Notes under the pieces: generated by a model
What the model was told of the DNA's origin: nothing
Databases searched by the model: none
What the model saw: the letters and a program-made list of their open reading frames with translations, nothing else
In this document: piece by piece, positions 8,949 through 32,742 of the stretch
How the letters are laid out: every line of letters starts with the position of its first letter
How positions within the stretch are numbered: position 1 is the first letter of the stretch
Program-made: the position numbers and the translations under genes
Source: Leptolyngbya sp. CCY15150
GTDB taxonomy: Bacteria > Cyanobacteriota > Cyanobacteriia > RECH01
Direction: 5' to 3'
Assembly (NCBI RefSeq): GCF_016888135.1
Contig: NZ_JACSWB010000152.1
Location: forward strand, 1-32,880
DNA: 32,880 nt

Positions 8949-10493
8949 CTAGGCAAAATCGCGATCGAGTTGGCTAAAGCGATTGACCGGGAATGGCGTC
9001 GCCATAGCCTTTTGGTAGGTCGCTTCTATGGCTGGCACTAGGCGTTCGGCCTGACGAACTCGTTCAGCTCGGTAAGCTTCATACTCGGGTAAGAGCGATC
9101 GCAACTCAGCTAACAAATCGGCTTCATTCACCGTTACCACTTGCCCTTGATCTACGACCAATTGTCCATTCACAAAGACCTTGCGAATAGACTGCCCCCG
9201 TTCGGCATAAACCAAGTGAATGGGCAGATCAGCCTGGGGTGTAAAGCTTGTGGTGGTGAGATCATAGAGCACAATGTCAGCCTTTTTACCAGGAGCGATC
9301 GCTCCAATATCCTCTTGAAGTAAGGCTGAGCGTGCTCCACCTTGGGTTGCCCACGTCAACACATCCCGAGCCTTGGGATAGCGAGAATAATCAGACTGCG
9401 TGACGGAGTGGGTCAAGCCTGCTGCTTTAATCACATCAAACATATTAAAGGAGTCGTTTGAACTCATACCGTCTGAGCCAAGGGCAATGGTGACACCCGC
9501 ATCCATCAACTGGCGAATGGGCGCAATGCCGCTGCAGAGGCGGTGGTTGCTCACCACGTTATGAATAACCGTCGCTCCAGCTTCGGCAATTAACTCAATA
9601 TCGCGATTGGTGAGCCAAATACCATGGGCGATCGCCGTGCGATGGGTCAAAATACCGTGGGTCTTGGCATAGCTCACCACCGACTCTCCTTCCCCATAGA
9701 AGACCGGCCCCGTGACTGCCTGGGTACGGGTTTCTAGCATATGGGTATGAATCGGCAGATTAAAATCCGCAGATAGGTCAGCAATTTGGTGCATCAGATG
9801 AGGGGTGACTCGCTGGGGAGCTGAGGGAGCTAAGGCGAGGGTTAGGAGTCCATCGCGCTGATGCCAGGTTTGATAGAGATCTTTGAATAGGGAAATCCAA
9901 TCCTGATCTGACAATCCCTCTAAGTCCTCTAACTCTTGATGTAGATCAGCCGGCAAGAAATCGCCTAAAAACGGAATGGTTTGATGCAACGGTAGGTTGA
10001 TCGCATGGTGGGTGAGGCTCGCCCGCAGCCCCAGATCTAAATAAGCTTGAGCCACAGCGGCGAAAATCTCCGGTGTGATGTAGGGCATTTCAATCAGGTC
10101 ATCTTGAATCGTTGTTGCTCCCGACTTCACCTGTTCGAGGGCTCCCAACATCGTACGCAGGTAGCAAAGGCGTGGCGTTAGATGCTGTTGCTGCAGGGGT
10201 GGATAGGTATAGAGCATCCATAACTCTAAGGGCATAGACTCATAGCGCCCTTTTTCCAAGATTTCCACTGAGTGAGCATGGGCGTTGACAAACCCCGGAA
10301 TCAGCAACTGATGGGTGGCATCAATGACGTGGGTTTGAGCCGTGGGTGGCTCAAGGTTTGGCGCAACCTGAGTGATGCGATCGCCCTCCACTAGCACATC
10401 GACTTGTCGGGGTTGGAGATCAAGGGAACCATCTTCTTGGGGGGTGAACGGTAAAACCGTAGCATTTTGGATGAGATAGGAGGTTGCGACCAT
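8949..10493 (-). CDS. ATZ/TRZ-type metal-dependent amidohydrolase (deaminase/hydrolase)
   Basis: A 514-residue enzyme of the amidohydrolase superfamily, in the branch with guanine, SAH/MTA and s-triazine deaminases. The mononuclear metal site is complete: H72 and H74 (NAHAHS), H249 with H251 and E254 (IHTHMLE), H290 (AIAHG) and D341 (LGSDGMSSND). The C-terminal GAIAPGKKADIVLYDL segment is the family signature for the composite beta-sandwich. No signal peptide is seen, so it is cytoplasmic. It lies 74 bp downstream of the MocR-type regulator on the same strand, so the two are probably one operon and the regulator may respond to its substrate or product. Substrate cannot be told from sequence. 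A purine, pterin or triazine-like ring with an exocyclic amine is most likely. No strong Shine-Dalgarno precedes the ATG. Confidence 0.85.
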   Translation of the reverse strand: MVATSYLIQNATVLPFTPQEDGSLDLQPRQVDVLVEGDRITQVAPNLEPPTAQTHVIDATHQLLIPGFVNAHAHSVEILEKGRYESMPLELWMLYTYPPLQQQHLTPRLCYLRTMLGALEQVKSGATTIQDDLIEMPYITPEIFAAVAQAYLDLGLRASLTHHAINLPLHQTIPFLGDFLPADLHQELEDLEGLSDQDWISLFKDLYQTWHQRDGLLTLALAPSAPQRVTPHLMHQIADLSADFNLPIHTHMLETRTQAVTGPVFYGEGESVVSYAKTHGILTHRTAIAHGIWLTNRDIELIAEAGATVIHNVVSNHRLCSGIAPIRQLMDAGVTIALGSDGMSSNDSFNMFDVIKAAGLTHSVTQSDYSRYPKARDVLTWATQGGARSALLQEDIGAIAPGKKADIVLYDLTTTSFTPQADLPIHLVYAERGQSIRKVFVNGQLVVDQGQVVTVNEADLLAELRSLLPEYEAYRAERVRQAERLVPAIEATYQKAMATPFPVNRFSQLDRDFA

Positions 10494-10567: not shown

Positions 10568-12037
10568 CTAGAAAGGTTGGCTGAGCATGGTCATAGCCAG
10601 TTGCTTCTTGGCCAGATAGCCGATTGTGCGCATGGCTTGATCCACGTCTTCTGTCCAAGGCAAGGAGCAATTGAGGCGGAAACAGTTGGTATAGCCGCTG
10701 GATGCAGAGAAAATGACGCCAGGAGCAATGCTAATGTTTTGAGCCAGGGCCTCTTCATAAAGCTGCAGCGAGTCGAACTCAGGGGGCAGCTCTAGCCACA
10801 GCACATGACCGCCATTGGGGCGAGTTACCTTGGTTTCTGCAGGAAAATAGTCGCAGATCGCCTGGGTCATTTGGGCTGTTTGCATCTGATATTTGCGTCG
10901 CAACTGTCGTAGATGGCGATCATAACCACCGTTAGCCAGAAAAGCTGCCAGGGTAAGCTGGGGGGCGATCGCTGTCGTTTGGTTCAAGACCCACTTGAGT
11001 TGCTCCACTTTGGCCTGATAGCGACCTGCGATCGCCCAGCCAATCCGCATTCCCGGCGACAGTGTTTTGCTACAGGAAGCGCAGTACAGGACTAGGCCGC
11101 TGCGATCGAAGGCTTTGATAGCTTTTGGGCGGCTACCTTCAAAATAAAGATCGCCGTAAATATCATCTTCAATCAACGGCATATCGTAGCGCTCTAGCAA
11201 GTCGGCCAACTGCTTTTTCTTGGCATCGCCCATGCAGGTGCCCAGGGGATTGCTAAAGTTGGATACCAGCACACAGGCGGTAATCTGCTGACGCTGCATC
11301 GCCATCTCTAAGTAATCCAACGATAGGCCATCCCGAGGATGGGTTGGCAGCTCTAGAACCTTGAGATGCAGCATTTCCAGAGCTTCAAGCAGCCCGTAGT
11401 AGGTAGGCGATTCGATAGCAACGGTGTCTCCCGGCTGCGTCACGGCGCGCAACGACAGATAGACCGCCTCAAAGGTGCCGTTGGTGGTTACAATCTGATC
11501 TGGATTAATGGAACACCCTGCCGTGAGCATGCGCTTGGCCACCTCGCGACGCAGCTCAACACAGCCCGGCGGCGCATCATAGGAATGGGCCTTGGCGGAA
11601 TGCTGGCGCAACACTTGCCCCATGAGGCGATTGAGGGCATTGAGGGGTAGGTGCTCAGCCACGGGTACCGCCGCCCCCAGCTTCAAAATCTTTGGATCCT
11701 GGATGGCGTGCATTAAGCGAAAGGTGAGGGAGTTGTCGATATCATAGACACGCTTGGGTGGATCCGTCGTTGCTGGCTCCTGAGGCTGCTGTAGGGCAGT
11801 TTGCCGCACGTAGTAACCCGACTGCGGGCGAGCACAGATCATGCCCCGATCCTCCAAAACCCGATAGGCTTCTAGCACGGTCGAGATGCTCACCGAAAGC
11901 TGTTCTCGCAGTTTGCGAACAGAGGGCAGGCGATCGCCCGGTTTCAGAGTCCCTTCATAAATCAGGGTTTCTAGGCGGTCTGCCACCTGCTCATACAAAC
12001 TTTTGTCAGATTCTAGATTGAGGGGAGTCATTGCCAT
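10568..12037 (-). CDS. MocR/GabR-type transcriptional regulator (GntR wHTH + aminotransferase domain)
   Basis: A 489-residue fusion protein. Residues about 10-80 are a GntR winged helix-turn-helix (SLYEQVADRLETLIYEG, then GDRLPSVRKLREQLSVS). Residues about 100-480 are a fold-type I aminotransferase domain with the PLP lysine K324 in CSKTLSPGMRIGW, plus N263 (SNFSNPLG) and the EDDIYGDL block. Such proteins are usually PLP-dependent regulators, not active aminotransferases. The start at 12037 has AAGG upstream. An in-frame ATG two codons later is nearly equal. A TACAGTT-based dyad 50-75 bp upstream suggests autoregulation. The neighbour downstream is an amidohydrolase, a plausible target of control. 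Confidence 0.9.
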   Translation of the reverse strand: MAMTPLNLESDKSLYEQVADRLETLIYEGTLKPGDRLPSVRKLREQLSVSISTVLEAYRVLEDRGMICARPQSGYYVRQTALQQPQEPATTDPPKRVYDIDNSLTFRLMHAIQDPKILKLGAAVPVAEHLPLNALNRLMGQVLRQHSAKAHSYDAPPGCVELRREVAKRMLTAGCSINPDQIVTTNGTFEAVYLSLRAVTQPGDTVAIESPTYYGLLEALEMLHLKVLELPTHPRDGLSLDYLEMAMQRQQITACVLVSNFSNPLGTCMGDAKKKQLADLLERYDMPLIEDDIYGDLYFEGSRPKAIKAFDRSGLVLYCASCSKTLSPGMRIGWAIAGRYQAKVEQLKWVLNQTTAIAPQLTLAAFLANGGYDRHLRQLRRKYQMQTAQMTQAICDYFPAETKVTRPNGGHVLWLELPPEFDSLQLYEEALAQNISIAPGVIFSASSGYTNCFRLNCSLPWTEDVDQAMRTIGYLAKKQLAMTMLSQPF

Positions 12038-12111: not shown

Positions 12112-12575
12112 CCCATAACAATTTAGCAGAACTGCATCTGTTTGGTTTAGATGTAACACAGCATACTAGATTCATACCGCTGATGGATAGGAACACCGTC
12201 TAGACCAGCAGCGATCGCTACCTGAGGAGAGACAACAGGATGAATCGATCCTTCCATCGAAATTACTCATGAATGCCATCGGATTTTTCGGTTGATCTCT
12301 TATTCCAGCCTCAGTAAGGTGAGGGCAACAGTATCTGACCTTCACTCAAATCTATAGGTCAAAACGTCCTATCTATTGGATGTGTAGGCACTGAGCCGCG
12401 CTGTTTTTATTCGATCTTGAACCTGTAGGCAATACTCTCGATTCAGCACAGGTGGTGCTGGAAAGCTGATATGGCAGATTTTGGTTATATCTAGCTTCTA
12501 GCAACCACAGTCGCCCAGTGTTTTCCAATGCTGGATATGTTTTCCATCCCTTTACGAAGTCTTTAGGAGGACGCG
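12112..12575. other. Intergenic region, nothing distinctive
   Basis: This stretch lies between divergently read genes. I see only a weak 6-bp hairpin (CAGCAC, 5-nt loop, GTGCTG) near 12445 and the strong Shine-Dalgarno of the next gene at its right end. No reading frame is convincing. Confidence 0.4.
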
Positions 12576-15973: not shown

Positions 15974-17617
15974 TCAGGTGTCCTCATGCAGATCTCCAAC
16001 AGATTCTGCTTCAACCACAAGCACAGGCAGGGAGCTAGTCTCGACAATGGCTCGCGGTACAGAACCGACCAGGACGTCTTGGAATGAACGGTGCCCACGC
16101 TTACCCACAATGATTTCCGCTACACCATAGTCTTGAGCAATGCGAATAATTGTTTCTGGGATCACGCCTTCTCGGATCAAAAACTGGTGACGAATGTCGG
16201 CTAAGGTGTGTTTTACTTGGTCTCGCAGCCACACCATGCCCGGTACATCATCCATCTGTTGCACATACAGCACAATGACCTCGCCATCACTGCGTCGGGC
16301 CAGCTCGGCAGCTTTTTTCAGAACTTGAGGCGCTAGGGGCGATGTATCCACGGCAGCCAGCAGAACAATCCGTCGCTCGATCGCTACTTTGGTGGGATCG
16401 ACCTCGCCCTGTTCTAGGAGTTTGGGGGCAAAGGTGGGAATGGCCCAGGCACCTAAGGGCGCAGTGATCAGGATAGATAGGGCAGCGATCGCCAAGATTG
16501 TTTCTCCGCCGGCAATACCCTGGGCTAAGGGAATCGCTCCGATCGCTGCCTGTACCGTGGCCTTAGCAGAGTTGCTGGGCAGCAGGAATAGACGTTCTCG
16601 AACTGTCCAATTACTGCCAAGGGTAGATAAGTACCAGCCTAGCGATCGCCCTACCAGGGTGCCAATAGCTAAGACTAAGAGTCCCGTCAACAACGTATCG
16701 CCTAGTACATCAAGCTGAATGCTGGCTCCTAGCAATACAAATAAGATAATCTCAGCGATCGCCCAGAGGCTATTAAAGCCACCACGTAGTCGCCGAGCTA
16801 GGGGCGCATCCAGCTCAATTAAGAAAAATCCTGTGGCCATGACCGCCAGGTAGCCAGAAAAGATCGGTACCGCCACCGCCACAATCACCAACAGCAGGGC
16901 AATGCTGGCCGCCACTAGGGAATCCTGCACCGCGTTTTGTGTCCAGTTTTGCTGAGCTAACACTGCCACCAGAAGACGGGCCGTGATCCAGCCTAGGAGC
17001 ACCCCCAACCCAACCTGGATGACCACCTGCAGCGGCAGTAGGTAGATGGCATTGACCGTGAATCCACCGGGCAGGGTAAGAATCGCATCTCCCTGGGCGA
17101 GAAATGCCAGCAGGAGGCTAAACACCAGCAGCAATAAGACATCTGAGAGCGCGCTGCCGGTTAAAATAGCGTCGGGAATGCCCTTGTGTACACCCCAGCC
17201 TAGGCTTTTAAGCCGCAGCATGGCCGGTACAATCACCGCAGGCGATTCCGCTCCCAGGATGCAGCCCAGCAGCAGTCCGGTGGCTACGTCAAACTGAAAC
17301 AACCAGATCGCCGCCAGCATGACCGCGATCGCTTCACAACTCGCCGGCAGAAACCCTAAGCGCAGGGCCACCGTTCCCTGCTGAGCTAGTTTCTCACGAT
17401 CCAATCCCAGACCGGCTTTCATCAGAATCACCATGACGGCAATGGTGCGCAAGGCATCCGCAGAGCCAAGCACCTCATCACTGAGGACATGCCCCACCTG
17501 CGGCCCTAGAAATATGCCCGCTACCACCATGCCAACCAAGGCTGGAGCCTGCAGTCGCCGGGCTAGCTGCCCCGCGAAGAAGCCCATCAACAAAATCCAA
17601 ACCATACTTGCTAACAT
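15974..17617 (-). CDS. Cation:proton antiporter with C-terminal universal stress (USP) domain
   Basis: A 547-residue protein. Residues about 1-390 are a hydrophobic transport domain with 11-13 helices of the monovalent cation/proton antiporter type: GLGLDREKL, then GAESPAVIVPAML and DAILTGSALSDVLLLLVFS, with membrane acidic residues where the ion-binding motif is expected. Residues about 405-540 are a USP domain (IVLLAAVDTSPLAPQVLKKAAELA, then IIVGKRGHRSFQDVLVGSVPRAIVE, close to the G-x2-G-x9-G nucleotide-binding pattern). Such fusions let a cytoplasmic nucleotide-binding domain gate transport. Ion specificity (Na+, K+ or Ca2+) cannot be read. The first ATG is used. An ATG four codons in is possible. 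The gene stands alone. Confidence 0.85.
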   Translation of the reverse strand: MLASMVWILLMGFFAGQLARRLQAPALVGMVVAGIFLGPQVGHVLSDEVLGSADALRTIAVMVILMKAGLGLDREKLAQQGTVALRLGFLPASCEAIAVMLAAIWLFQFDVATGLLLGCILGAESPAVIVPAMLRLKSLGWGVHKGIPDAILTGSALSDVLLLLVFSLLLAFLAQGDAILTLPGGFTVNAIYLLPLQVVIQVGLGVLLGWITARLLVAVLAQQNWTQNAVQDSLVAASIALLLVIVAVAVPIFSGYLAVMATGFFLIELDAPLARRLRGGFNSLWAIAEIILFVLLGASIQLDVLGDTLLTGLLVLAIGTLVGRSLGWYLSTLGSNWTVRERLFLLPSNSAKATVQAAIGAIPLAQGIAGGETILAIAALSILITAPLGAWAIPTFAPKLLEQGEVDPTKVAIERRIVLLAAVDTSPLAPQVLKKAAELARRSDGEVIVLYVQQMDDVPGMVWLRDQVKHTLADIRHQFLIREGVIPETIIRIAQDYGVAEIIVGKRGHRSFQDVLVGSVPRAIVETSSLPVLVVEAESVGDLHEDT

Positions 17618-18070
17618 AGCGCCACGTTGAAGTTGAGTAGAGAAACGTGGCTTGTGGTGGAAAAACTAAGGAAGCGATCGCCATAGCCCTACAGTTCCGC
17701 CCCAAGCCGGAAGAGTAGGAGCTATCAGCCATCTCGATCGCTTAAACCGGCAGATTTATCATGACCGGTATGAGCGCGGGGCGGTTTCGGCGAGCTCCAT
17801 CGCCATCGCACTTTTTATACCATGGTTCGTTGGCCTCAGAAAAGGGTCAATCTAGAAGGATATGTCCAGCTATCCCGACCATGCTCCCCCAGAAACCTTT
17901 GCTGATGCCCTAGTGATGCCCTAGTGATGCCCTAGACCTAGCCTCCTAAAACCCTTCGTCAATGGTTCCTAAAATCACCATGCTCCCTTGATCAGAGAGG
18001 GTAGTGCCTGGACTCTGTCGAAAGAATTTCTCCATCCTGATCGAGAAACTTGGGGGGAAACCAAAGCTTG
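17618..18070. other. Intergenic region with an 11-bp triple tandem repeat
   Basis: The main feature is TGATGCCCTAG repeated three times head to tail at 17903-17935. No credible gene is present. A frame open from 17988 merges into the BMP gene but crosses its NtcA promoter, so it cannot be the native start. Confidence 0.5.
17903..17935 (+). repeat. Tandem repeat, 3 x 11 bp
   Basis: Three perfect contiguous copies of TGATGCCCTAG. They lie 136 bp upstream of the NtcA box of the transporter operon. No function is evident. The copy number may vary between strains. Confidence 0.9.
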
Positions 18071-18112
18071 GTATCTGAGAATACTTTTTTGCGTTTACGC
18101 AATCGGTAGCGT
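18071..18112 (+). promoter_or_regulatory. NtcA-activated promoter of the transporter/biuret hydrolase operon
   Basis: GTATCTGAGAATAC at 18071-18084 is an exact GTA-N8-TAC NtcA site. Exactly 22 bp later comes TAGCGT (18107-18112), fitting the TA-N3-T -10 box of NtcA class-II promoters. No competing -35 is needed. Transcription would start near 18119, giving a leader of roughly 157 nt before the GTG at 18276. The sequence match is complete and its activity is inferred. Confidence 0.8.
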
Positions 18113-18118
18113 GGGTGC

Positions 18119-18275
18119 TATTCCTACGAATTTTTACGGTCACTGCCCCCCTCGTGTATCCTCCATCAATCGTAGATTCCGAATGTTGAGTCAGGAGCTA
18201 ACCTGCTTTTCACCGAACTACGATGGCCGGACGACTATAATTTGTTCCATCATTCGCATTTTAGAGAGTAACGCT
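18119..18275 (+). promoter_or_regulatory. Long 5' leader with possible RNA structure
   Basis: ATCGTAG (18169-18175) can pair perfectly with CTACGAT (18218-18224), enclosing a small hairpin CAGG-AGCTAA-CCTG (18192-18205) followed by CTTTT. It matches no riboswitch class that I recognise, including the guanidine motifs looked for because of the neighbouring genes. Confidence 0.25.
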
Positions 18276-19457
18276 GTGCACAATCGAAGAATACTGTCGC
18301 TGTCTCGTCGTCAAGTTTTGCGTGGCTTGCTCGCAACGACCGCGTTTGGCGTCACGGCTAAGTTGGGTACCGGCTGTAGCCCCAGCGGTGCTGGCGGTGG
18401 TGAAGCTGCTGCTGGCGGTGAGGAGATTGTCATTGGATTTATCTACGTGGGCCCCAGAGATGACTATGGGTATAACCAAGCCCATGCAGAAGGAGCTGCT
18501 GGTATCTCCAGCATTCCTGGCGTGCGGATCGTCGAAGAAGCTAGCGTGCCAGAAACAGCCGCCGTGCAGGAAACCATGCGTAGCATGATCGAGCTGGATG
18601 GAGCCATAGCTCTATTTCCTACGTCGTTTGGCTACTTTGATCCCCACATTCTCCAACTTGCTGCAGAATTTCCAGAGGTGCAGTTCCTCCATGCGGGTGG
18701 GCTGTATGAAGAGGGCGTCCACCCTGAGAACGTGGGCAGCTACTTTGGCTACATTGACGAAGCCCAGTATGTGGCGGGTATCGTGGCTGGGCATATGACC
18801 AAGTCTGGCAAGCTGGGCTTTGTGGCAGCTAAACCCATTCCCCAAGTGTTGCGCAACATCAACAGCTTCACCAAAGCTGCTCGTTCGGTGAACCCTGACA
18901 TCACCACCCAGGTCATTTTCACGGGAGATTGGGCCCTGCCGGTGAAGGAAGCGGAAGCCACCAACAGCATGGCAGACCAAGGCATTGATGTCGTCACCTG
19001 CCATGTGGACAGTCCTAAGGTGGTGATTGAAACGGCGGAACGGCGCGGTATGTTCACGGTGGGCTACCATGCCAACCAAGCCGACCTAGCACCCACCGGC
19101 TATCTCACGGGCGCAGAGTGGGACTGGACGAGTATCTATACCCAGTATGCCCAGATGTTCCTAGAAGGCAAGAGCCTGATGAACGGGGAGATTGATCACC
19201 TTGTGCGGGGTGGCTTGGCGGATAGTTTCTGTAAGCTCTCTCCCTATGGGGCGGCGGTGTCTGAGGAAGCCAAGACTGCAGCGGATGCAGCCCGAGACCA
19301 GATCATCGCTGGAGAACTGGTGCTCTATGAAGGAGAGATCAAGGACAACACCGGCACGGTGCGCGTGGCGGCAGGGCAAAAGCTAGAGCAAAAGTCTGTG
19401 GAACTGGAAAGCATGGACTGGTTGATCGAAGGCGTTGAAGGATCGGTGGGCAGCTAA
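18276..19457 (+). CDS. BMP-family ABC transporter substrate-binding protein (Tat signal, likely lipoprotein)
   Basis: A 393-residue protein if started at the GTG at 18276. The N-terminus then has a twin-arginine motif SRRQVLRG (residues 10-17), a short hydrophobic stretch and a cysteine at 34 (LGTGC), suggesting a folded-exported lipoprotein. The lipobox is atypical, with leucine at -4. The mature part is the BMP/Med fold (FIYVGPRDDYGYNQAHAEG, later GYHANQADLAPTGYLTGAEWDW) used for nucleosides and other small nitrogenous solutes. An in-frame ATG at 18183 would add 31 residues and bury the Tat motif, so it is less likely. The GTG has only a weak AG-rich site. The stop overlaps the start of the first permease (TAATG). 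It is the first gene of the NtcA-type operon. Confidence 0.88.
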   Translation: MHNRRILSLSRRQVLRGLLATTAFGVTAKLGTGCSPSGAGGGEAAAGGEEIVIGFIYVGPRDDYGYNQAHAEGAAGISSIPGVRIVEEASVPETAAVQETMRSMIELDGAIALFPTSFGYFDPHILQLAAEFPEVQFLHAGGLYEEGVHPENVGSYFGYIDEAQYVAGIVAGHMTKSGKLGFVAAKPIPQVLRNINSFTKAARSVNPDITTQVIFTGDWALPVKEAEATNSMADQGIDVVTCHVDSPKVVIETAERRGMFTVGYHANQADLAPTGYLTGAEWDWTSIYTQYAQMFLEGKSLMNGEIDHLVRGGLADSFCKLSPYGAAVSEEAKTAADAARDQIIAGELVLYEGEIKDNTGTVRVAAGQKLEQKSVELESMDWLIEGVEGSVGS

Positions 19458-20557
19458 TGAAAGACACACCTTGGTTGCGAAAAAGTGAACCGTTGGTGAT
19501 TTCGGCAGGGGCGATCGCTGTTGCCCTAGCTCTGTTTGGGTTATTTTGTGCGATCGCTGGGGCCAATCCTTTTGGTGTCTATGGATCGATTTATACCGCC
19601 GCCTTCGGGAGTTCTAGTCGCATCCAAGGTACGTTGATTTTGGCGTCGCCCCTGATGTTAAGCGCTCTTTGTACGGCTCTGCCGGCCCGGCTGGGGCTGG
19701 TGATTATTGGCAACGAGGGAGCGCTGGTGGTAGGCGGTGTGGGAGCCGTAGCCATGGGGCTGAGCCTAGGCACGTCTCTGCCGCCGCTGCTGGTGCAAAC
19801 GCTGATGGCGATCGCTGGCATGGTGGCGGGTGGTGTGTGGATTGGCATCGTCGGGGCGTTGCGCCACTACCGAGCGGTGAATGAAACCATCAGCAGCCTG
19901 TTGATGAACTATATCGCGATCGCCCTGCTGAATCACTTAGTGGGCGGCCCCATGCGGGATCCCAGTTCCCTCAACAAGCCCTCCACCTTTCCCCTCGATG
20001 CTGCCAACATGCTGGGCAATTTACCCGGCACCCGCATTCACTATGGACTGATCTTCGGTCTGGTGGCCTGTGGGATCGCCTACGTCCTGATCCAGCGCAC
20101 CACCTTCGGGTTTGCGGCGCGCACCGCCGGTGGCAACGTGCGCGCCGCCCGGATTGCAGGCCTACCTGTCGGACGCTTAGCGGTCACCATCTGCTTTCTG
20201 GCTGGGGCCTGTGCTGGTCTGGCGGGCATGATTGAGGTGGCGGCGGTGCATGGGGTGGCCAACGAATCCCTCAATGCTGGCTATGGCTACGGTGGCATTT
20301 TGGTCGCCTTTGTGTCTCGCCATAATCCCCTGGCGGCGGCTTTAATTGCGGTGCTGGTCGGCGGTATTGTTGGCAGTGGTGGCATTCTGCAGCGCACCCA
20401 TAGCTTGCCAGACGCCACGGTGTTGATCTTTCAGGGCATTATGTTCCTGACGATTTTGTACAGCGATTCGCTCTACGGCAAGCTGGCTTTCTTCCGAGAG
20501 CGGCCGGTAGACATACCGCCGGATCCAACGCCTGCGGTGGTTGAAACCACGGTTTAA
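19457..20557 (+). CDS. ABC transporter permease 1 (NupP-like, BMP system)
   Basis: A 366-residue polytopic inner-membrane protein of the branched-chain-type permease superfamily. The conserved cytoplasmic coupling region is visible as RTTFGFAARTAGGNVRAARIAG, just after the mid-protein helices, and GGILVAFVSRHNPLAA near the C-terminus is typical of NupP-like subunits. It pairs with the second permease to make a heterodimeric pore fed by the preceding binding protein. Its ATG overlaps the previous stop by one base, indicating translational coupling. The downstream spacer carries a 15-bp duplication starting inside its last codons. Confidence 0.9.
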   Translation: MKDTPWLRKSEPLVISAGAIAVALALFGLFCAIAGANPFGVYGSIYTAAFGSSSRIQGTLILASPLMLSALCTALPARLGLVIIGNEGALVVGGVGAVAMGLSLGTSLPPLLVQTLMAIAGMVAGGVWIGIVGALRHYRAVNETISSLLMNYIAIALLNHLVGGPMRDPSSLNKPSTFPLDAANMLGNLPGTRIHYGLIFGLVACGIAYVLIQRTTFGFAARTAGGNVRAARIAGLPVGRLAVTICFLAGACAGLAGMIEVAAVHGVANESLNAGYGYGGILVAFVSRHNPLAAALIAVLVGGIVGSGGILQRTHSLPDATVLIFQGIMFLTILYSDSLYGKLAFFRERPVDIPPDPTPAVVETTV

Positions 20558-20576
20558 ATAGCCACGGTTTAAATAG
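20547..20576 (+). repeat. 15-bp tandem duplication at the end of permease 1
   Basis: CCACGGTTTAAATAG occurs twice without a gap. The first copy contains the stop codon of permease 1 and the second lies in the 48-bp spacer, so the duplication left the protein unchanged. Confidence 0.95.
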
Positions 20577-20605
20577 ACAGATTCCAATCAGATGAGGTAG
20601 GACTT

Positions 20606-21556
20606 GTGGCATCAGAAGCATTGGGATGGCTAGGGGTGCCCTTAGCGATCGCCGCTGGCACCATGCGGGGCGGAACACCGTTCCTGTTTGTCAGTTTGGG
20701 GGAATGTTTAACGGAAAAAAGCGGCAAGATTAACCTAGGGCTAGAAGGCACGTTGTTAACTGGAGCCATGAGCGCCTATGCCGTTTCCTACCTAACGCAG
20801 GACAGTTTAGGGCCGATATTGGCTCCCTTTGCCGGGGTATTGGTGGCAGGTTTGGCGGGCATGGCGCTGGGCTGTATCCACGGCTGGCTCTGTCAGCAGC
20901 CTCGGGTCAACGACGTGGCGGTGGGCATCGCCATGATTATTTTCGGCAGCGGCGTTGCCTTTTTCTTTGGCAAGCCGTTCATCCAGCCCAGTGCTCCCCT
21001 CTTGCCGACCATTGACCTGCTGGCCTGGACGGATCTACCGGAACAGTTTCAGTCAGCGGTGAAGATCAGCCCGCTCTTTTTATTAGGGGTGGCGATCGCC
21101 CCCCTAATGACCTGGTTCTTTCGCTCGACCCGCTGGGGCCTGTTTATCCGAGCCGTGGGCGATAGTCCTGATGCGGCGTTGGCCATGGGCGTCTCTATCT
21201 TCAAGGTGCGGATGCTCAGCATTGTGGCCGGCAGTTTCCTGGCGGGCATTGGCGGCGCGTCTCTCTCGCTGTACTACCCCGGTGTATGGACAGAGCTGGT
21301 ATCCAGCGGTCAGGGTTTGATGGCCGTGGCGCTGGTGATTTTTGCCCGCTGGCAGCCCATGCAGTGTCTCTGGGCATCTTTGCTATTTGGCGGTGCTCAG
21401 GCCCTTGGGCCGGCTCTGCAATCTGTCGGCATCACCCAAGGCTACTACTTATTTAACGCTGCTCCTTATGTGTTGACCTTGGTGATTATGGTGATCACCT
21501 GTTCCCCAACCCGCACCATGACCGGCGTTCCGGGAGCCCTAGGGAGCGATCGCTAG
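20606..21556 (+). CDS. ABC transporter permease 2 (NupQ-like, BMP system)
   Basis: A 316-residue membrane protein, the second pore subunit. The pattern FVSLGECLTEKSGKINLGLEGTLLTGAM near residues 30-60 is the hallmark of the NupQ/RbsC-like half (glutamate-rich first loop), and RSTRWGLFIRAVGDSPDAALAMGV is the ATPase-coupling loop. The start is GTG at 20606, with GAGG at suitable distance. No better ATG exists. It follows permease 1 by 48 bp and precedes the two hydrolase genes. Confidence 0.9.
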   Translation: MASEALGWLGVPLAIAAGTMRGGTPFLFVSLGECLTEKSGKINLGLEGTLLTGAMSAYAVSYLTQDSLGPILAPFAGVLVAGLAGMALGCIHGWLCQQPRVNDVAVGIAMIIFGSGVAFFFGKPFIQPSAPLLPTIDLLAWTDLPEQFQSAVKISPLFLLGVAIAPLMTWFFRSTRWGLFIRAVGDSPDAALAMGVSIFKVRMLSIVAGSFLAGIGGASLSLYYPGVWTELVSSGQGLMAVALVIFARWQPMQCLWASLLFGGAQALGPALQSVGITQGYYLFNAAPYVLTLVIMVITCSPTRTMTGVPGALGSDR

Positions 21557-21627
21557 GTAAATCTGTCGCTTGGGTCACCCAACGCCCAACCTAAAGCACC
21601 ATAGATGCTTCGCGCGACGCCCTCCAT

Positions 21628-21710
21628 AGTGTGATCAGTGTGATCCATAGATTCGGTAACGTAAGATTCAGTAACGTATAGTCAGTACAGTTTGCAGTAG
21701 ATTTGCAGTA
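21628..21710 (+). repeat. Three short tandem duplications in the permease-amidase spacer
   Basis: Within the 169-bp gap there are AGTGTGATC twice (21628-21645), GATTCRGTAACGTA twice (21650-21663, 21665-21678) and TTTGCAGTA twice (21691-21699, 21702-21710). They immediately precede the GAGGAGA ribosome-binding site of the amidase. An internal promoter or operator is possible but not shown. Confidence 0.85.
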
Positions 21711-21725
21711 TGAGGAGATCTAACC

Positions 21726-22748
21726 ATGAGCGGATTAGGCGGTCTCAATAAATCGCCCAACGGTGTTGTGATGGGCATGGTGCAATTACAGTTGCCTACG
21801 GTGGTGACGCCGGCGGATCTGGCGGCCCAAACCCAGCGAATTTGCGACATGGTGGCGAAGGCTCGACGCAACATGCCCACCATGGATCTCGTGGTCTTTC
21901 CTGAATATGCCCTGCATGGGCTATCCATGGATACCAATCCAGAGATCATGTGTCGGCTCGATGGGCCAGAAGTAGCGGCCTTTCAGCAAGCCTGCATCAC
22001 CCATCAGATCTGGGGCTGTTTTTCGATCATGGAATACAACCCCCATGGCAACCCCTACAACAGCGGCTTAATTATTGATGACCAAGGGCAGATTAAGCTC
22101 TACTACCGCAAGCTGCATCCTTGGGTGCCCGTGGAACCCTGGGAACCAGGCAATATTGGCATTCCTGTCTGTGAAGGCCCCAATGGCAGCACCCTGGCGT
22201 TAATTATCTGCCATGACGGTATGTTCCCTGAAATGGCTCGGGAATGTGCGTATAAGGGTGCCGAGATTATGATTCGCACAGCGGGTTATACGGCTCCCAT
22301 CCGCCACAGTTGGCAGATCACCAACCAGACTAATGCTTTCTGTAACCTCATGTATACGGCATCGGTCTGCATGTGCGGCACCGACGGCACCTTCGACTCC
22401 ATGGGCGAAGGCATGATGGTCAACTATGACGGCACACCGTTGGTGATGGGTAGCCACCGCCCGGATGAAATCATCACGGCGGAATTTCGTCCTGACCTAG
22501 TTCGAGAGGCGCGGCGGCATTGGAGCGTCGAAAATAATATCTACCAATTTGGCCATCGCGGCTATGTGGCGGTGAAAGGCGGAGCCCAAGACTGCCCCTA
22601 CACCTACATGAAAGACTTGGTAGATGGCTCCTATCGTCTGCCTTGGGAGGATGAGGTGGTGCATACCGACGGCACCTCCTGTGGCTTTGAGGCACCCACC
22701 CGCCTCTATCGGGGTGAAGAACTGCCATCTGAAACGGCAACTGCTTAG
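21726..22748 (+). CDS. amiF: Formamidase-type aliphatic amidase (AmiF family, nitrilase superfamily)
   Basis: A 340-residue cytoplasmic hydrolase. From memory it aligns along its whole length with AmiF formamidases (formamide to formate plus ammonia). The nitrilase triad is complete: E60 (FPEY), K129 (YRKL) and C162 (ICHDG), plus the second glutamate E137 (PVEPWEPG). Against Helicobacter AmiF (E60, K133, C166) the spacing is kept apart from one 4-residue gap. VCEGP and CHDG favour AmiF over acetamide-type AmiE. GAGGAGA precedes the ATG. The gene sits between the permease and ATPase genes and 12 bp before biuH, so it probably acts on the imported solute or a breakdown product. The true substrate could be another short amide. 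Confidence 0.85.
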   Translation: MSGLGGLNKSPNGVVMGMVQLQLPTVVTPADLAAQTQRICDMVAKARRNMPTMDLVVFPEYALHGLSMDTNPEIMCRLDGPEVAAFQQACITHQIWGCFSIMEYNPHGNPYNSGLIIDDQGQIKLYYRKLHPWVPVEPWEPGNIGIPVCEGPNGSTLALIICHDGMFPEMARECAYKGAEIMIRTAGYTAPIRHSWQITNQTNAFCNLMYTASVCMCGTDGTFDSMGEGMMVNYDGTPLVMGSHRPDEIITAEFRPDLVREARRHWSVENNIYQFGHRGYVAVKGGAQDCPYTYMKDLVDGSYRLPWEDEVVHTDGTSCGFEAPTRLYRGEELPSETATA

Positions 22749-22760
22749 GGAGCATCAACT

Positions 22761-23447
22761 ATGGGTACGTTTGTAACGGCTGATCCCTATCCTTATCCCT
22801 ATAATGGCGATCTGCGTCCTGAGAATACGGCGCTGATTATCATTGATATGCAGACCGACTTCTGTGGAGAAGGTGGTTATGTGGATAAGATGGGCTATGA
22901 CTTGTCTCTGACCCGTGCGCCTATTGAACCGATTAAACGGCTTTTGTCGGTGATGAGGGAGAAGGGATTTCATATTATCCATACCCGCGAAGGGCATCGT
23001 CCTGATCTATCTGACCTGCCGGCCAATAAACGATGGCGATCGCAGCAGATTGGTGCGGGCATTGGCGATCCAGGGCCCTGCGGCAAAATTCTGGTGCGGG
23101 GAGAGCCGGGCTGGGACATCATTCCTGAGCTAGCGCCCCTGCCGGGAGAGGTGGTGATTGATAAACCTGGCAAGGGCTCCTTCTATGCCACGGATTTAGA
23201 CCTCATCCTATCCCGTCAAGGTGTCCAAAACATTATTCTCACGGGCATCACCACCGATGTCTGTGTCCACACCACCATGCGCGACGCCAACGATCGCGGC
23301 TACGAATGTTTGATGGTCTCCGACTGCACCGGCGCGACGGACTATGGTAATCATCTAGCTGCCCTAAAGATGATTACCATGCAGGGGGGGGTGTTTGGTG
23401 CCGTAGCCGAATCGGCGGCCCTGATTGATGCGATTCATTCACTCTAG
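22761..23447 (+). CDS. biuH: Biuret amidohydrolase (isochorismatase-like cysteine hydrolase)
   Basis: A 228-residue cysteine hydrolase. It closely resembles my memory of BiuH of Rhizobium leguminosarum, the enzyme hydrolysing biuret to allophanate and ammonia. Shared blocks include ADPYPxPYNGxLRP, [22 protein letters not shown] and [10 protein letters not shown]. The catalytic residues D29, K135, C168 and the substrate-contacting Q208 fall at a constant offset of seven from BiuH D36, K142, C175 and Q215. GGGAG lies eight bases before the ATG. No allophanate hydrolase is in the window. Allophanate could decarboxylate to urea and feed urease. Other members of the superfamily (RutB, N-carbamoylsarcosine hydrolases) fit less well. 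Confidence 0.85.
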
Positions 23448-23457
23448 AGAGATTGCC

Positions 23458-24999
23458 ATGACCACTGCTTCTGTCTCTGCCTCGGATGTGATTAGCCCAC
23501 CTGACCTAGAAGTGGTCAACATGACCAAGCAATTTGGTAGCTTGGTTGCCCTTGATCACGTCTCCATGCACCTGAAGCCTGGCACCTTCCATGCGCTGCT
23601 AGGCGAAAATGGGGCCGGGAAAAGTACCCTGGTCAAATGCATTATGGGGTTTTATCAACCCACGTCGGGGGATGTTTTGGTGGGTAAGCGATCGCGGGAG
23701 ATTGCTAGTCCTAAAGATGCTCACCAGTACGGCATTGGCATGGTCTACCAGCACTTTACCTCGGTGCCCGCCATGACCGTAGCGGAAAATCTAGTGCTCT
23801 CCCGCTTTGATCCCTCCGTGATGATTCGCTGGCAAGATGAACGCGATCGCCTCCAGGCCTTCATGGATCAGGCTCCCTTCCAAGTTGACTTGGAGGTGCC
23901 GGTGGCCCAGCTAGCGGCTGGACAAAAGCAAAAGCTGGAAATTCTTAAGCAACTTTATCTCAACAGTCGTATTCTAATTCTGGATGAACCGACGTCGGTG
24001 CTGACCCCCGGTGAAGCGGATGAGGTGCTGGGTCTGCTGCGTCAAGAGGTGACCAATGGACGGCTGAGTGTGCTGATGATTTCCCACAAATTCCGGGAAG
24101 TGATGACCTTTACCGACGAAGTAACTGTCTTGCGCAAAGGTAAGTTTGCGGGGCATGGCCTAGTCAAAGATCTGACCATTGCTGATCTGTCGTCCATGAT
24201 GCTAGGCGAGGCAAGGGAACCCAAGGTCGTGGATAAGGTGATCACCGCAGCCGATCGCCCCGTCCTAGACTTTACGGACATTCATGCCAATAAGGACAAC
24301 GGTCTCCCTGCTGTACGAGGCACGAGTCTCACGGTCTATGCTGGCGAAATTGTTGGGATTGCTGGCGTCTCGGGGAATGGGCAGCGGGAGTTGGTGGAGG
24401 TGTTGTCGGGGCAGCGATCGCCCCTCACCGGTACGGTCGTCGTCAACGGCACACCCTATGGAGCAACTCGGTCGGAGATGTTTCACAACGGGGTCTTTTC
24501 CCTGCCGGAAGAACCTCTGCGCAATGCCTGCGTCCCTCACATGAGCGTAGCGGAAAACATGGCCCTGCGCACCTTTGATCGCCCTCCCCAGTCCAAGGGG
24601 TCATTTCTGCGGCTAGGTTCGATTCGCCAGATGGCCAATCGCCTGATCCAGCAATTTTCGGTGAAAACCCCCACGCCCGAAACACCCATTAGTAATCTAT
24701 CCGGCGGAAACGTGCAGCGGGCAGTCCTGGCCCGAGAGCTATCCTCGGATCAAATTAACTTACTGATTGCGGCGAATCCTTGCTTTGGTCTAGATTTCTC
24801 GGCTGTGGAGTTTATCCATGGACAGATTGTAGCTGCCCGCAATCGCGGCGTGGCTGTCTTACTCGTGAGTGAAGACCTAGACGAACTGCTGTCCCTAGCC
24901 GATCGCATTGTCGTGATGAGTGATGGTGAATTCGTTTACGAAAGCGCGATCGCCGACGCCGACCTGAGCACCATCGGTCAACGGATGGCCGGTCATTAA
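23458..24999 (+). CDS. ABC transporter ATP-binding protein with two nucleotide-binding domains (NupO-like)
   Basis: A 513-residue double ATPase as used by BMP and sugar uptake systems. Domain 1 has Walker A GENGAGKST (49-57), a diverged signature LAAGQKQ (152-158), Walker B ILILDEPTS and the switch histidine H210. Domain 2 lacks an intact Walker A (GVSGNGQRE), keeps NLSGGNVQRAVLARE, and has a weakened Walker B (LLIAANPCFGLD), the usual asymmetry of this class. The frame is open 11 codons upstream into biuH, but the ATG at 23458, just after the biuH stop and with AGAGAG before it, is the natural start. It energises the two permeases encoded upstream. Confidence 0.92.
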   Translation: MTTASVSASDVISPPDLEVVNMTKQFGSLVALDHVSMHLKPGTFHALLGENGAGKSTLVKCIMGFYQPTSGDVLVGKRSREIASPKDAHQYGIGMVYQHFTSVPAMTVAENLVLSRFDPSVMIRWQDERDRLQAFMDQAPFQVDLEVPVAQLAAGQKQKLEILKQLYLNSRILILDEPTSVLTPGEADEVLGLLRQEVTNGRLSVLMISHKFREVMTFTDEVTVLRKGKFAGHGLVKDLTIADLSSMMLGEAREPKVVDKVITAADRPVLDFTDIHANKDNGLPAVRGTSLTVYAGEIVGIAGVSGNGQRELVEVLSGQRSPLTGTVVVNGTPYGATRSEMFHNGVFSLPEEPLRNACVPHMSVAENMALRTFDRPPQSKGSFLRLGSIRQMANRLIQQFSVKTPTPETPISNLSGGNVQRAVLARELSSDQINLLIAANPCFGLDFSAVEFIHGQIVAARNRGVAVLLVSEDLDELLSLADRIVVMSDGEFVYESAIADADLSTIGQRMAGH

Positions 25000-25003
25000 C
25001 GCC

Positions 25004-25375
25004 ATGAGCCCAACTATGCCCACTCCCCTTGTCTTAACTGATCTATTCCACCTAGCAGAAACGGGCGATCGCCTTCCCTGGCAGCCCTTTCGTCCTGGTG
25101 TAGAGATCTATCCGCTCTACAGTGATCCAGAGAGCAGCGCTTCGGCAGCTTTATTGCGCTATGCCCCTGGTGCAACTGTTCCTGAGCATATCCACACCGG
25201 CTTTGAGCATATTGTGGTTTTGTCTGGTTCCCAGGGCGATCGCCATGGCACCTATCCGGCTGGCACCCTCGTCATTAATTCTCCTGACACGCAGCACAGT
25301 GTGGCCAGTGAAGACGGATGTATTGTATTGGTCATCTGGCAACGCCCGGTGAAAATTTTGGTCGATGAGCCATGA
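25004..25375 (+). CDS. Cupin-domain protein at the end of the transporter operon
   Basis: A 123-residue single cupin. The first motif fits the consensus exactly: G56, H62, H64 and E68 in GATVPEHIHTGFEH, followed by the closing glycine G75. The second motif is weaker, with H98 (PDTQH). A mononuclear metal site is therefore expected. The start lies four bases after the ATPase stop, so it is co-translated with the operon. Possible roles are a small hydrolase or isomerase on the imported compound, or a ligand sensor similar to ChrR-type anti-sigma cupins. The sequence does not decide. Confidence 0.85.
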   Translation: MSPTMPTPLVLTDLFHLAETGDRLPWQPFRPGVEIYPLYSDPESSASAALLRYAPGATVPEHIHTGFEHIVVLSGSQGDRHGTYPAGTLVINSPDTQHSVASEDGCIVLVIWQRPVKILVDEP

Positions 25376-28627: not shown

Positions 28628-31600
28628 TCAGGCGGAGGGCTGGGTGCCTACTAACCGCATCGATTCTTCCATCAGGGCAACAATGGTCTCAAAGGCAAAG
28701 TTATCCACCTGTTGCAGTAGATCATGTTGAATGCTGGTATTGGGAATCTGACGAATGAGTTGTTTGAGGGTTTTATCGTCGCAGCGCAAGGCCGTATCAA
28801 CCGAGGTTTGCATCCAACTAGCGGGCATCATCGTCAATTGATCGGGCGTGGCGCTGAGGGATGGGCCATCGACAGGGGCGATCGCCATCCAGTCTTGGGA
28901 GCAGGTGACTAGGTCATAGGTGACTTCCAGCAGTCGCAGTAGATCAGTATCCTGTAAAGGCGGCACCAGAACGGCGTCATAGTGGGCCGCGATCGCTTGC
29001 TGTTCCTCCTCGCTGAGGGGCGCTGAGACAATGGCTGCCAGCTTAGGTGCTGGCTGTCCTAAGCATTCGGGCTGAATGGGACGTTGATGATCGTCCTGGC
29101 CCGGCGTCAGATGCACCAAAACCAGATGATGCGGGCAGAGCTGATCATGGGCGATCGCCACCTGCCAGTTGTCTGCTTCATGCACCGCAAACCCAACGGC
29201 AATTAAGAGGCGCGCTAAGGATTGTCGGCGCTCGATCTGATCATCAATTAACAGCACGCGACAGGTCGTCATCGCCAGCACCTCCCGCAGTTTTTGGGAG
29301 ACAGTCGAGGCTAGAAGCGGATCCTGGGCAGAGGCACTGGTAATCTGCACCGGCAGGGTGATGGTGAAGGTGCTGCCTTGCCCCACCGTGCTTTCCAGCC
29401 CGATGTAGCCGCCCATCAGGTGCAAAAATTCTTGGATAATCGATAGGCCCAAGCCCGTGCCTCGAATGGACTTATCTGTATATTGCGACTGCACAAAGGG
29501 CTGGAAGATGGCCTCTTGCTCCGTGGGATCAATGCCCATGCCGGTGTCCATCACCTCTAAGTACAAGTTACCCTCAAACTCAGAATGGACGGCGGCCTGG
29601 TAGGACACTCGCAGGGCCACCATGCCCTGGTCTGTAAACTTCAAGGCATTGCTCAACAGGTTGATTAAAATTTGGCGCAGTTTCTTCCCATCGGTCATCA
29701 CCACCGAGGGCACCCCTAGGGCAACTTCGATGTAAAACTCTAGTCCCTTATTAGCTGCCTGAGCTTGAAACATCTGGTTGAGGATGGTCATCAAGTCGGT
29801 GAGGTTAACCGATCGATGTTCAATCTTCACATGCCCGGCTTCCAACCGAGAGAAGTCCAACACATCGTTGATTAAGCTGAGCAGATGTTGACCGCTGGCA
29901 AAAATGGTTTGTAGGGTGCTGTGATAGGTTTGCTCAATGGTTTGATCCCGCTGCATAATCTGCACATAGCCCAGAATAATGTTGAGCGGTGTGCGCAACT
30001 CGTGGGTCATGTGGGAGAGGAACTTGCTCTTCACCTGGTTCGCTGATTCCGCTGCGGCTTTGGCCTGCTCCAGGGCTTCGTTTTGCGCCTGCAGTTCTTG
30101 CTGCTGCTGCCGCTCTTGCTTGAGCAGGTTAGCATGGGCGATCGCCACCCCCATTTGGGCTGCGACGGTTTCTAGTAATTCAATATCTGTGGCTGTCCAA
30201 TACCGATAGCGATCGCATTGATGGAGAGCGATCGCCCCGTTGGGACTATCTTGATAGGAGGTGCGTACCACCAGCATGGAGCGAATTCCCATCTGACGGC
30301 AGAGGGGTGCCTGTTCCCGCAGCAGCGGCTCTGTGTAAACATTCGGGGAAGCGATCGCCTGATCCATCAGCATCACATGACAGGCGTGGGGGTTGTTCTC
30401 CATAGGAACCTCAGTCCCCGTCATCGGTTCACAGCTCATGTCACAATATTCGGCGGCATAGGTCAGCCGAGCAGGATTCGTATCATACTGCAGCATCAAA
30501 CAGCGACTGGCATCAAAGGTTCGTCCCAGGAGATCAGCAGCGGTTTGAAACATCACCTCGGGATCGAGACTATGGCGAATGGCGTCGGTGATCTGGCTAG
30601 CCAGAATCGCCTGGTTCATCTGCTGCTGCAGAGCAAATTCTAGATGTCGGCGGCTAGAAATATCAACACAGACGCCAATAATGCCCTGCACATGGCCCTC
30701 TGGACTGTAAAAGGGACGCAAGGTCGTTTGATACCAATGCTCAGAGCCATCGTGGTGGGTGATCAGCTCATGGGGAATTTGGCAGGGGCGCTCGGTGCGC
30801 ATCACTTGACGATTCATGTCGAGCACCTGCTCAAACTTGACGGGATTGTAGAGACGAATTTCGCTTTCCAATCTGCCGATCAAGTCTTCCACAGGCACGC
30901 CGCAGACTTCGGCCACTGCCCGGTTGGCTGCCAAAAATCGGCCATCGGCATTCTTGACAAACACGAGGCAATCCAAAGAATCAATGATCTGATTGAGAAA
31001 ATCCTTTTGCTGCTGTAGTGCTTGGGTAGCTTGGGTTTGGAGCGTAATGTCTCGCACCATCACCAGCACTTCATCTGTATTAATCGGGACGATCTGAACA
31101 TCCTCGTGGCGCAGATCGCCTTCCACAAGAATGTCATGGCTATAGTGTTGGGGAACTCCCGTTCGCAACGCTTGCTGTACATACTGCATGCGCTGCTGAG
31201 CCAAGGGCTTCGGCATACAAGCAAACAGGGAGGAGCCGGGATAGACTTGCTCGGCTTGGTTCAGGTGAACATCTCCACCTTTTTTAATGGTGATCAGGGT
31301 GCCGTCAGCCCGGACGGTGAGCAGCAAGTCAGGAATGGCTTCAATCAAGACTCGATGGGTGGCTTCTAGGTTCTGTAAGGCGACTTCAGCGGCTTTGCGA
31401 TCGCTGACATCAAGAAATACAGTATCCCAAATCACACTCCCGTCGGCTTGTGGACTGGGACGACCAACGCCTTCCACCCATTTTTGTCGTCCAGACGGCG
31501 TGGTGATGCGCCATTCGTGCCGCCAGGTTTCTAAGCTGTGGGCCGAGGCCTGGATAGAGGTCTGCATGTCCTCCAGATCGTCGGGATGAACCTGTTGCCA

Positions 31601-32605
31601 AAGGAGACTAATATCCTGTTGGATTTGCACGACATCTAACTCCCACAGCTCTCGGCAGTTGGGATTGGCGTAGAGAATCTGATCGGTGCCATCGGGGTGC
31701 AGCCGGTAGCGGATGACGGTGCCTGGTAGGTTGGAGGCGATCGCTTCAAACTGTTCGGTGACCTGTTGCAGGGCAGTCTGATCCTGCTGTTGCTTCGCTT
31801 CTAGGTGTTTACGATCGCTAATATCCAGTAAAATACCGCACCAAGTGATCGTTCCATCGGCTTGGCGAGTGGGCTTGGAACGCGCTTGCACCCATTTCAC
31901 TGAGCCATCCCTAGACCGGATGCGAAAATCCTGCTGGATAGGCGTGAGATTTTGTTGAGATTGTTCGAAAACTAGCTGTACCCGCTTCGCGTCATCGGGG
32001 AGAATTAAGTCCCAAAAGCGACTCACATCCGCCAGCATGAACTCTGCAGAATAGCCAAAGAGAGTCTGAACACCCTCGCTAATAAAATTCAGCTTATGCT
32101 GATGATCCCGCGATAGATGGTACTGAAATACCACCCCTGGCAGGGTGTCGGTGATCATGCGCAGGGGATGATCGATGCAGTGATTGCCGGGGATCGCGAC
32201 GCTCAACTGGGCTGCCGATGCCGCCATCACCGGCAGTTGTAGAGCGTTGCGCAGAGTCACCTCTAGGAGATCAGCATCGATGCGGCTGTAGATGAGATAG
32301 CTATGAGCGCCTTGGTGTAGAGCAGCAGTGAGGTGGTCGTAGTGCTGCAGGTGCCCAAGGGCAATGATGGGGAGGTTGGGGGCGATCGCTTTTAGGGAGC
32401 TTACCTGAATGGGTTTGGATGGATGGGATGACACACCCATGAGCAGGAGATCGTAGGAGCGCGATCGCAGATGATGAACTGCTGTTTTCTGGGTACTTAC
32501 GGCGTCGATGGTGAGCGGCAAAAGCGATTGCTGGAGCCACTGAACCATGGAGGAGCGGTTGAGGCGATCGTCTTCGACAAGTAAAACCTGGCAAGAATCT
32601 TGCAT
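28628..32605 (-). CDS. Hybrid sensor histidine kinase with four PAS, one GAF and two degenerate receiver domains
   Basis: A 1325-residue soluble protein. Order: receiver-like domain 1-125; PAS 147-268, 285-405, 415-520 and 533-655; GAF 665-828; coiled coil; HisKA with phospho-acceptor H868 (SHMTHELRTP); HATPase about 970-1086 (NLLSNALKF, VMDTGMGI, GTGLGLSI); a second receiver-like domain 1115-1230; and a helical tail. Both receivers lack the acceptor aspartate: G57 in LLLMGVSS and H1165 in LVLVHLTPG. The conserved lysine is also gone (Y106 and P1215). The GAF has no canonical bilin-binding motif, although several cysteines (C721, C725, C742) are present. It probably senses small ligands or redox state and signals to a separate regulator. 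Confidence 0.9.
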   Translation of the reverse strand: MQDSCQVLLVEDDRLNRSSMVQWLQQSLLPLTIDAVSTQKTAVHHLRSRSYDLLLMGVSSHPSKPIQVSSLKAIAPNLPIIALGHLQHYDHLTAALHQGAHSYLIYSRIDADLLEVTLRNALQLPVMAASAAQLSVAIPGNHCIDHPLRMITDTLPGVVFQYHLSRDHQHKLNFISEGVQTLFGYSAEFMLADVSRFWDLILPDDAKRVQLVFEQSQQNLTPIQQDFRIRSRDGSVKWVQARSKPTRQADGTITWCGILLDISDRKHLEAKQQQDQTALQQVTEQFEAIASNLPGTVIRYRLHPDGTDQILYANPNCRELWELDVVQIQQDISLLWQQVHPDDLEDMQTSIQASAHSLETWRHEWRITTPSGRQKWVEGVGRPSPQADGSVIWDTVFLDVSDRKAAEVALQNLEATHRVLIEAIPDLLLTVRADGTLITIKKGGDVHLNQAEQVYPGSSLFACMPKPLAQQRMQYVQQALRTGVPQHYSHDILVEGDLRHEDVQIVPINTDEVLVMVRDITLQTQATQALQQQKDFLNQIIDSLDCLVFVKNADGRFLAANRAVAEVCGVPVEDLIGRLESEIRLYNPVKFEQVLDMNRQVMRTERPCQIPHELITHHDGSEHWYQTTLRPFYSPEGHVQGIIGVCVDISSRRHLEFALQQQMNQAILASQITDAIRHSLDPEVMFQTAADLLGRTFDASRCLMLQYDTNPARLTYAAEYCDMSCEPMTGTEVPMENNPHACHVMLMDQAIASPNVYTEPLLREQAPLCRQMGIRSMLVVRTSYQDSPNGAIALHQCDRYRYWTATDIELLETVAAQMGVAIAHANLLKQERQQQQELQAQNEALEQAKAAAESANQVKSKFLSHMTHELRTPLNIILGYVQIMQRDQTIEQTYHSTLQTIFASGQHLLSLINDVLDFSRLEAGHVKIEHRSVNLTDLMTILNQMFQAQAANKGLEFYIEVALGVPSVVMTDGKKLRQILINLLSNALKFTDQGMVALRVSYQAAVHSEFEGNLYLEVMDTGMGIDPTEQEAIFQPFVQSQYTDKSIRGTGLGLSIIQEFLHLMGGYIGLESTVGQGSTFTITLPVQITSASAQDPLLASTVSQKLREVLAMTTCRVLLIDDQIERRQSLARLLIAVGFAVHEADNWQVAIAHDQLCPHHLVLVHLTPGQDDHQRPIQPECLGQPAPKLAAIVSAPLSEEEQQAIAAHYDAVLVPPLQDTDLLRLLEVTYDLVTCSQDWMAIAPVDGPSLSATPDQLTMMPASWMQTSVDTALRCDDKTLKQLIRQIPNTSIQHDLLQQVDNFAFETIVALMEESMRLVGTQPSA

Positions 32606-32742
32606 ACAGCACTACAGGAGGGAACAAGTAACGTCGTCTTGCTTGAAACACCTAGATCGTCACGCTCGATGTATAAAATACTACGATTTATCTAGGCGGT
32701 AACGTTGCAGCCCTCTCTTAGGAGACTACAGGTTGATGACCC

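Follow-up and report, generated by a model that had tools for sequence, protein, structure and literature searches.

Biuret is a nitrogen-rich relative of urea. In ammonia-oxidising bacteria, biuH-trtA-trtB-atzF genes are found with bmpA-nupABC (PMC12625717), and the biuret hydrolase (BiuH) of Rhizobium leguminosarum 3841 is described under 5BK6 and 6AZN-6AZS. Residues D36, F41, K142, K145, C175, and Q215 of the reference BiuH are catalytic, or activity is lost or falls sharply without them. AtzT from Pseudomonas sp. ADP (6PI5), a binding protein of known structure, binds guanine at 110 nM. Canonical NtcA-activated (class II) promoters, such as those of glnA, nirA, urtA, and ntcB, serve the scavenging of combined nitrogen and carry the palindrome GTAN8TAC, centred near -41.5, with 22 bp separating it from a -10 element of the form TAN3T (PMC3898017).

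The window (the whole stretch of Leptolyngbya sp. CCY15150 DNA that was analysed, 32,880 nucleotides) contains this arrangement on its forward strand. The sequence GTATCTGAGAATAC at positions 18071-18084 matches GTAN8TAC, a spacer of exactly 22 bp that begins with T6 follows at 18085-18106, and TAGCGT, which fits TAN3T, occupies 18107-18112. An earlier note on this DNA had the sequence and coordinates right, and the consensus to which it fitted them (GTA-N8-TAC / N22 / TA-N3-T) agrees with the published canonical definition (PMC3898017). Against a promoter reading, TAGCGT agrees with TATAAT at three positions only. The box is centred at 18077.5, and adding the 41.5 nt of class II geometry predicts a transcription start at 18119, the position given in the earlier note. 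Since the first gene starts at a GTG at 18276, the predicted leader is ~157 nt including the start base, with a putative 5′ untranslated region at 18120-18275. An open frame extending back to TTG 17988 would place the box inside the gene; we rejected this start because the Tat-like signal and the matches of relatives begin at or near 18276. We also dropped a riboswitch or structured leader as a rival form of control, as the operon strand of the leader has no match in Rfam and the fold of 18120-18275 is not unusual (z 0.95). The target operon is new compared to canonical NtcA class II promoters, and the box is not universal among relatives.

The predicted operon (18276-25375) consists of seven closely spaced genes on the forward strand, with a largest gap of 170 bp. 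The first (18276-19457) encodes a BMP-family substrate-binding lipoprotein (PF02608) whose translation contains a twin-arginine-like signal and a lipobox. Two ABC permeases (19457-20557 and 20606-21556, both PF02653) are followed by a formamidase-like amidase (21726-22748; NF009803, 581.6 bits versus a cut-off of 406; formamidase structures 5G3O and 2DYU). The product of 22761-23447 is a biuret hydrolase by family and residues, scoring 427.4 bits against NF050097 (cut-off 370) and matching 6AZO without gaps. An ABC ATPase with two ATP-binding domains (23425-24999; two stretches of PF00005) and a ChrR-type cupin (25004-25375; PF12973), whose place is conserved in related operons, complete the set. 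With BiuH and an AtzT-like binding protein among its products, the operon can be described more closely than as the uncharacterised transporter of the earlier note.

All six residues checked are kept in the window's BiuH (D29, F34, K135, K138, C168, and Q208; ungapped, offset 7). The alignment to the R. leguminosarum 3841 enzyme is ungapped over 223 residues, and all tested activity residues are common to both. In contrast to that enzyme, the window's BiuH is cyanobacterial, and its gene shares an importer operon with that of a formamidase-like amidase; AtzF is not encoded alongside. The locus shares BiuH and a BMP-type ABC importer, often with TrtA, with the ammonia-oxidiser cluster (PMC12625717), but atzF and trtB were not seen here and the proposed control is by NtcA, a cyanobacterial regulator.

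Uptake of biuret or a closely related compound through the operon's products is likely, though less certain than the promoter itself. The nearest solved relative of the binding protein is AtzT (6PI5, E 2.5e-60). We compared the seven AtzT ligand contacts (Tyr45, Ser97, Phe98, Glu165, Trp194, Asn218, and Asn220) and found that the window protein keeps four: the stacking Tyr and Trp, and the Ser-Phe pair. The other three differ (E165Q, N218H, and N220D), so the pocket departs from the full set of guanine contacts in AtzT. The same Q, H, and D were present in all 31 related loci that carry biuH. Since three of the seven contacts are altered alike in all biuH-bearing loci, the protein probably binds a flat molecule capable of hydrogen bonding, which need not be guanine. 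The genome encodes a second BMP importer (C105), whose ligand pocket is different and whose upstream stretch, as far as we read it, contains no GTAN8TAC.

The strongest competing account leaves the promoter intact and makes the operon an importer of purines or another nucleobase-like ligand instead of biuret. The guanine affinity of AtzT and the retained stacking residues fit this account, as does the finding that 20 of the 51 informative related loci have no biuH within reach. Nevertheless, we consider it unlikely, given that biuH sits between importer genes in the window, that it is nearby in the other 31 informative loci, and that the three substituted contacts recur throughout those loci. 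Twenty-one of the 31 biuH-bearing loci contain a second BiuH-like gene; the one compared was nearest to the triuret hydrolase TrtA.

Returning to the putative NtcA promoter, we asked what the genome and related genomes contain. An ntcA gene is present (C146:34033-34611; 385 bits versus a curated cut-off of 245), and the genome's own glnA has the same arrangement (GTAGTACTTGATAC-22-TAGGAT). From public genomes we collected upstream regions for relatives of the first gene, reduced them to 161 non-redundant sequences, and examined 450 bp of each. GTAN8TAC occurred in 53 of the 161, compared to 6.9 +/- 2.7 in shuffles, while half-sites with control spacers of 3-7 and 9-15 occurred in 4-16. The full promoter, with a gap of 20-24, was found in 15 regions versus 0.43 in shuffles (maximum of 4 in 100 shuffles). 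The distance from box to TAN3T peaked at exactly 22 bp, with 11 cases, compared to 0-3 at every other distance. Six of these 11 share one Pseudanabaena-like context and another two come from the window and from the relative nearest to it, which lowers the number of independent cases. The boxes are spread over 34 mutually non-aligning sequence contexts (versus 4-12 for the control spacers tested), and shared ancestry alone thus does not explain their excess.

Upstream regions of glnA, a known NtcA target, contained the box in 28 of 30 cases, with the 22-bp gap in 27. Among 30 recA upstream regions, used as a negative control, one contained the box and none the full promoter. Relatives of the first gene are intermediate: the box is clearly enriched but not universal. 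Unlike for glnA, no perfect box occurs within 450 bp in two thirds of these relatives; control may not be universal, or it may often operate through weaker or more distant boxes. Box presence was not associated with biuH (15/31 versus 7/20, p = 0.40), leaving the idea that the box is restricted to biuH-bearing operons unsupported. We also rejected action of the box on a divergent gene in relatives, as spacing in the reverse orientation lacked a clear peak at 22 bp (3 cases at 22 bp, 5 at 30 bp).

The motif by itself is less telling. With the gap fixed at 22 bp, the pattern matched once in the window (0.08 expected; a match also arose in 8 of 100 shuffles), and GTAN8TAC alone matched six times (2.7 expected). 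Across the 5.75-Mb genome, 83 sites match GTAN8TAC-N20-24-TAN3T. Counted from their coordinates, 19 have a gap of exactly 22 bp, close to the one fifth expected for random spacing, which indicates that most genome-wide matches are noise. A reversed-pattern control gave 246 matches and, being a different word, is little informative. At the genome density, the chance of a match on one strand of one given ~290-bp upstream stretch is ~5 in 10,000. Since the site was chosen after the fact and loose matches are so many, we rejected motif counting alone as proof, and our claim rests on the cross-species footprint.

Comparison with the closest relative, Leptolyngbya sp. DLM2.Bin15, revealed that both half-sites and the -10 element are unchanged and that the spacer is likewise 22 bp. 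The two changes in the box both fall in the free N8 core. The 55 bp from 18096 to 18150, which include the predicted start, contain no change, while 17900-18070 is 75% identical; if differences were evenly spread, an identical run of 55 bp would have a probability of ~0.0025.

These data bear on a second alternative, a chance match in which NtcA does not bind the box and the operon is driven from another promoter. The 83 loose genome matches with little excess at 22 bp, together with the relatives that lack a perfect box, count in favour of chance. Yet the enrichment is specific to a spacer of 8 and a gap of 22 at relatives of the same gene, the half-sites and -10 element are kept in DLM2.Bin15, and no sigma-70-type promoter was found in 17600-18400, making this explanation improbable. 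Slightly less probable still is that NtcA binds in another role, as a repressor or as co-regulator with a second activator, such that nitrogen starvation is not a simple on-switch: some NtcA sites do repress or have non-canonical layouts (PMC3898017) and in one clade of relatives the box lacks a TAN3T at 22 bp, but known repressing sites lie downstream of -35 (PMC3898017), the box here is at an activating position, and activation suits an operon that yields ammonia.

We conclude that 18071-18112 is very probably the core of a genuine NtcA-activated class II promoter, a reading supported by the genome's ntcA, the layout of its own glnA, and the enrichment at NtcA spacings upstream of relatives. 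The earlier note held that the site directly ties the transporter to NtcA; the link is supported by these comparisons, but "directly" is too strong a word. In a model consistent with the data, NtcA with 2-oxoglutarate would bind 18071-18084 under nitrogen limitation and make contact with RNA polymerase positioned on the TAN3T -10 element (18107-18112), such that transcription would begin near 18119 and proceed through 18276-25375 as one operon. The binding protein, two permeases, and ATPase would then import a biuret-type compound, from which the biuret hydrolase and formamidase-like amidase would release ammonia. Together, the promoter and operon likely mean NtcA-controlled scavenging of biuret-type nitrogen. 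If so, the list of nitrogen sources to which starved cyanobacteria are set to turn grows by a biuret-type compound, and the regulator, the start site, and the enzyme are all testable. A literature search, with subscription journals mostly outside its reach, returned no paper on NtcA and biuret together, nor any linking cyanobacteria to biuret hydrolase, triuret, or cyanuric acid hydrolase.

Genes elsewhere in the genome could extend this scheme. Outside the operon, a TrtA-like gene overlaps a gene for cyanuric acid hydrolase (NF052395, 473 versus 360 bits) on contig C113:40037-41787 of G000 (L157:6038-7787), and cyanuric acid hydrolase scored above cut-off in 27 of 194 sampled genomes of the same class. 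The genome has two urease alpha genes, and a gene for an AtzE-family amidohydrolase and a urease alpha gene lie ~5 kb apart (G000 contig C175:55409-63099). There are three PF01425 proteins. Two were compared with TIGR02713 and neither was above cut-off, such that these two scanned proteins include no allophanate hydrolase above cut-off; the third (C217) scores 568 bits to PF01425. Tentatively, many cyanobacteria may possess an NtcA-controlled pathway for using cyanuric acid, triuret, and biuret as nitrogen sources. Such a pathway would combine the importer and BiuH of the operon with TrtA, encoded either within the operon or apart from it, and a cyanuric acid hydrolase encoded elsewhere in the genome; allophanate would be removed without AtzF, for example by decay to urea followed by urease. 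This broader proposal is possible, and we hold it with less confidence than the uptake of biuret by the operon.

Several other features were observed. In 15 Nodosilinea-type regions (L200-L235 loci), GTATCCAAxxxTAC-like boxes lie 270-420 bp upstream of the binding-protein gene, with no TAN3T at 22 bp. Within the window, a box on the reverse strand at 2526-2539 (GTATCTCTAGATAC) lies 76 nt before a glutamine-synthetase-like gene (948-2450, reverse strand) and is followed after 23 bp by TTAACT, which is near, but not exactly, canonical. A further box, at 12153-12166 (GTATGCTGTGTTAC), is 116 nt before a gene for a MocR-like GntR/aminotransferase regulator (10568-12037, reverse strand), which precedes an amidohydrolase of the triazine hydrolase/8-oxoguanine deaminase superfamily (8949-10493). 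GTAN8TAC at 32671-32684 precedes, by 66 nt, a gene for a PAS/GAF histidine kinase (28628-32605, reverse strand). Finally, a fluoride riboswitch (RF01734, 44 bits versus 34) at 17709-17813 on the reverse strand lies directly upstream of the divergent gene 15974-17617, which encodes a Na+/H+ exchanger with a universal-stress domain, suggesting that this transporter responds to fluoride.
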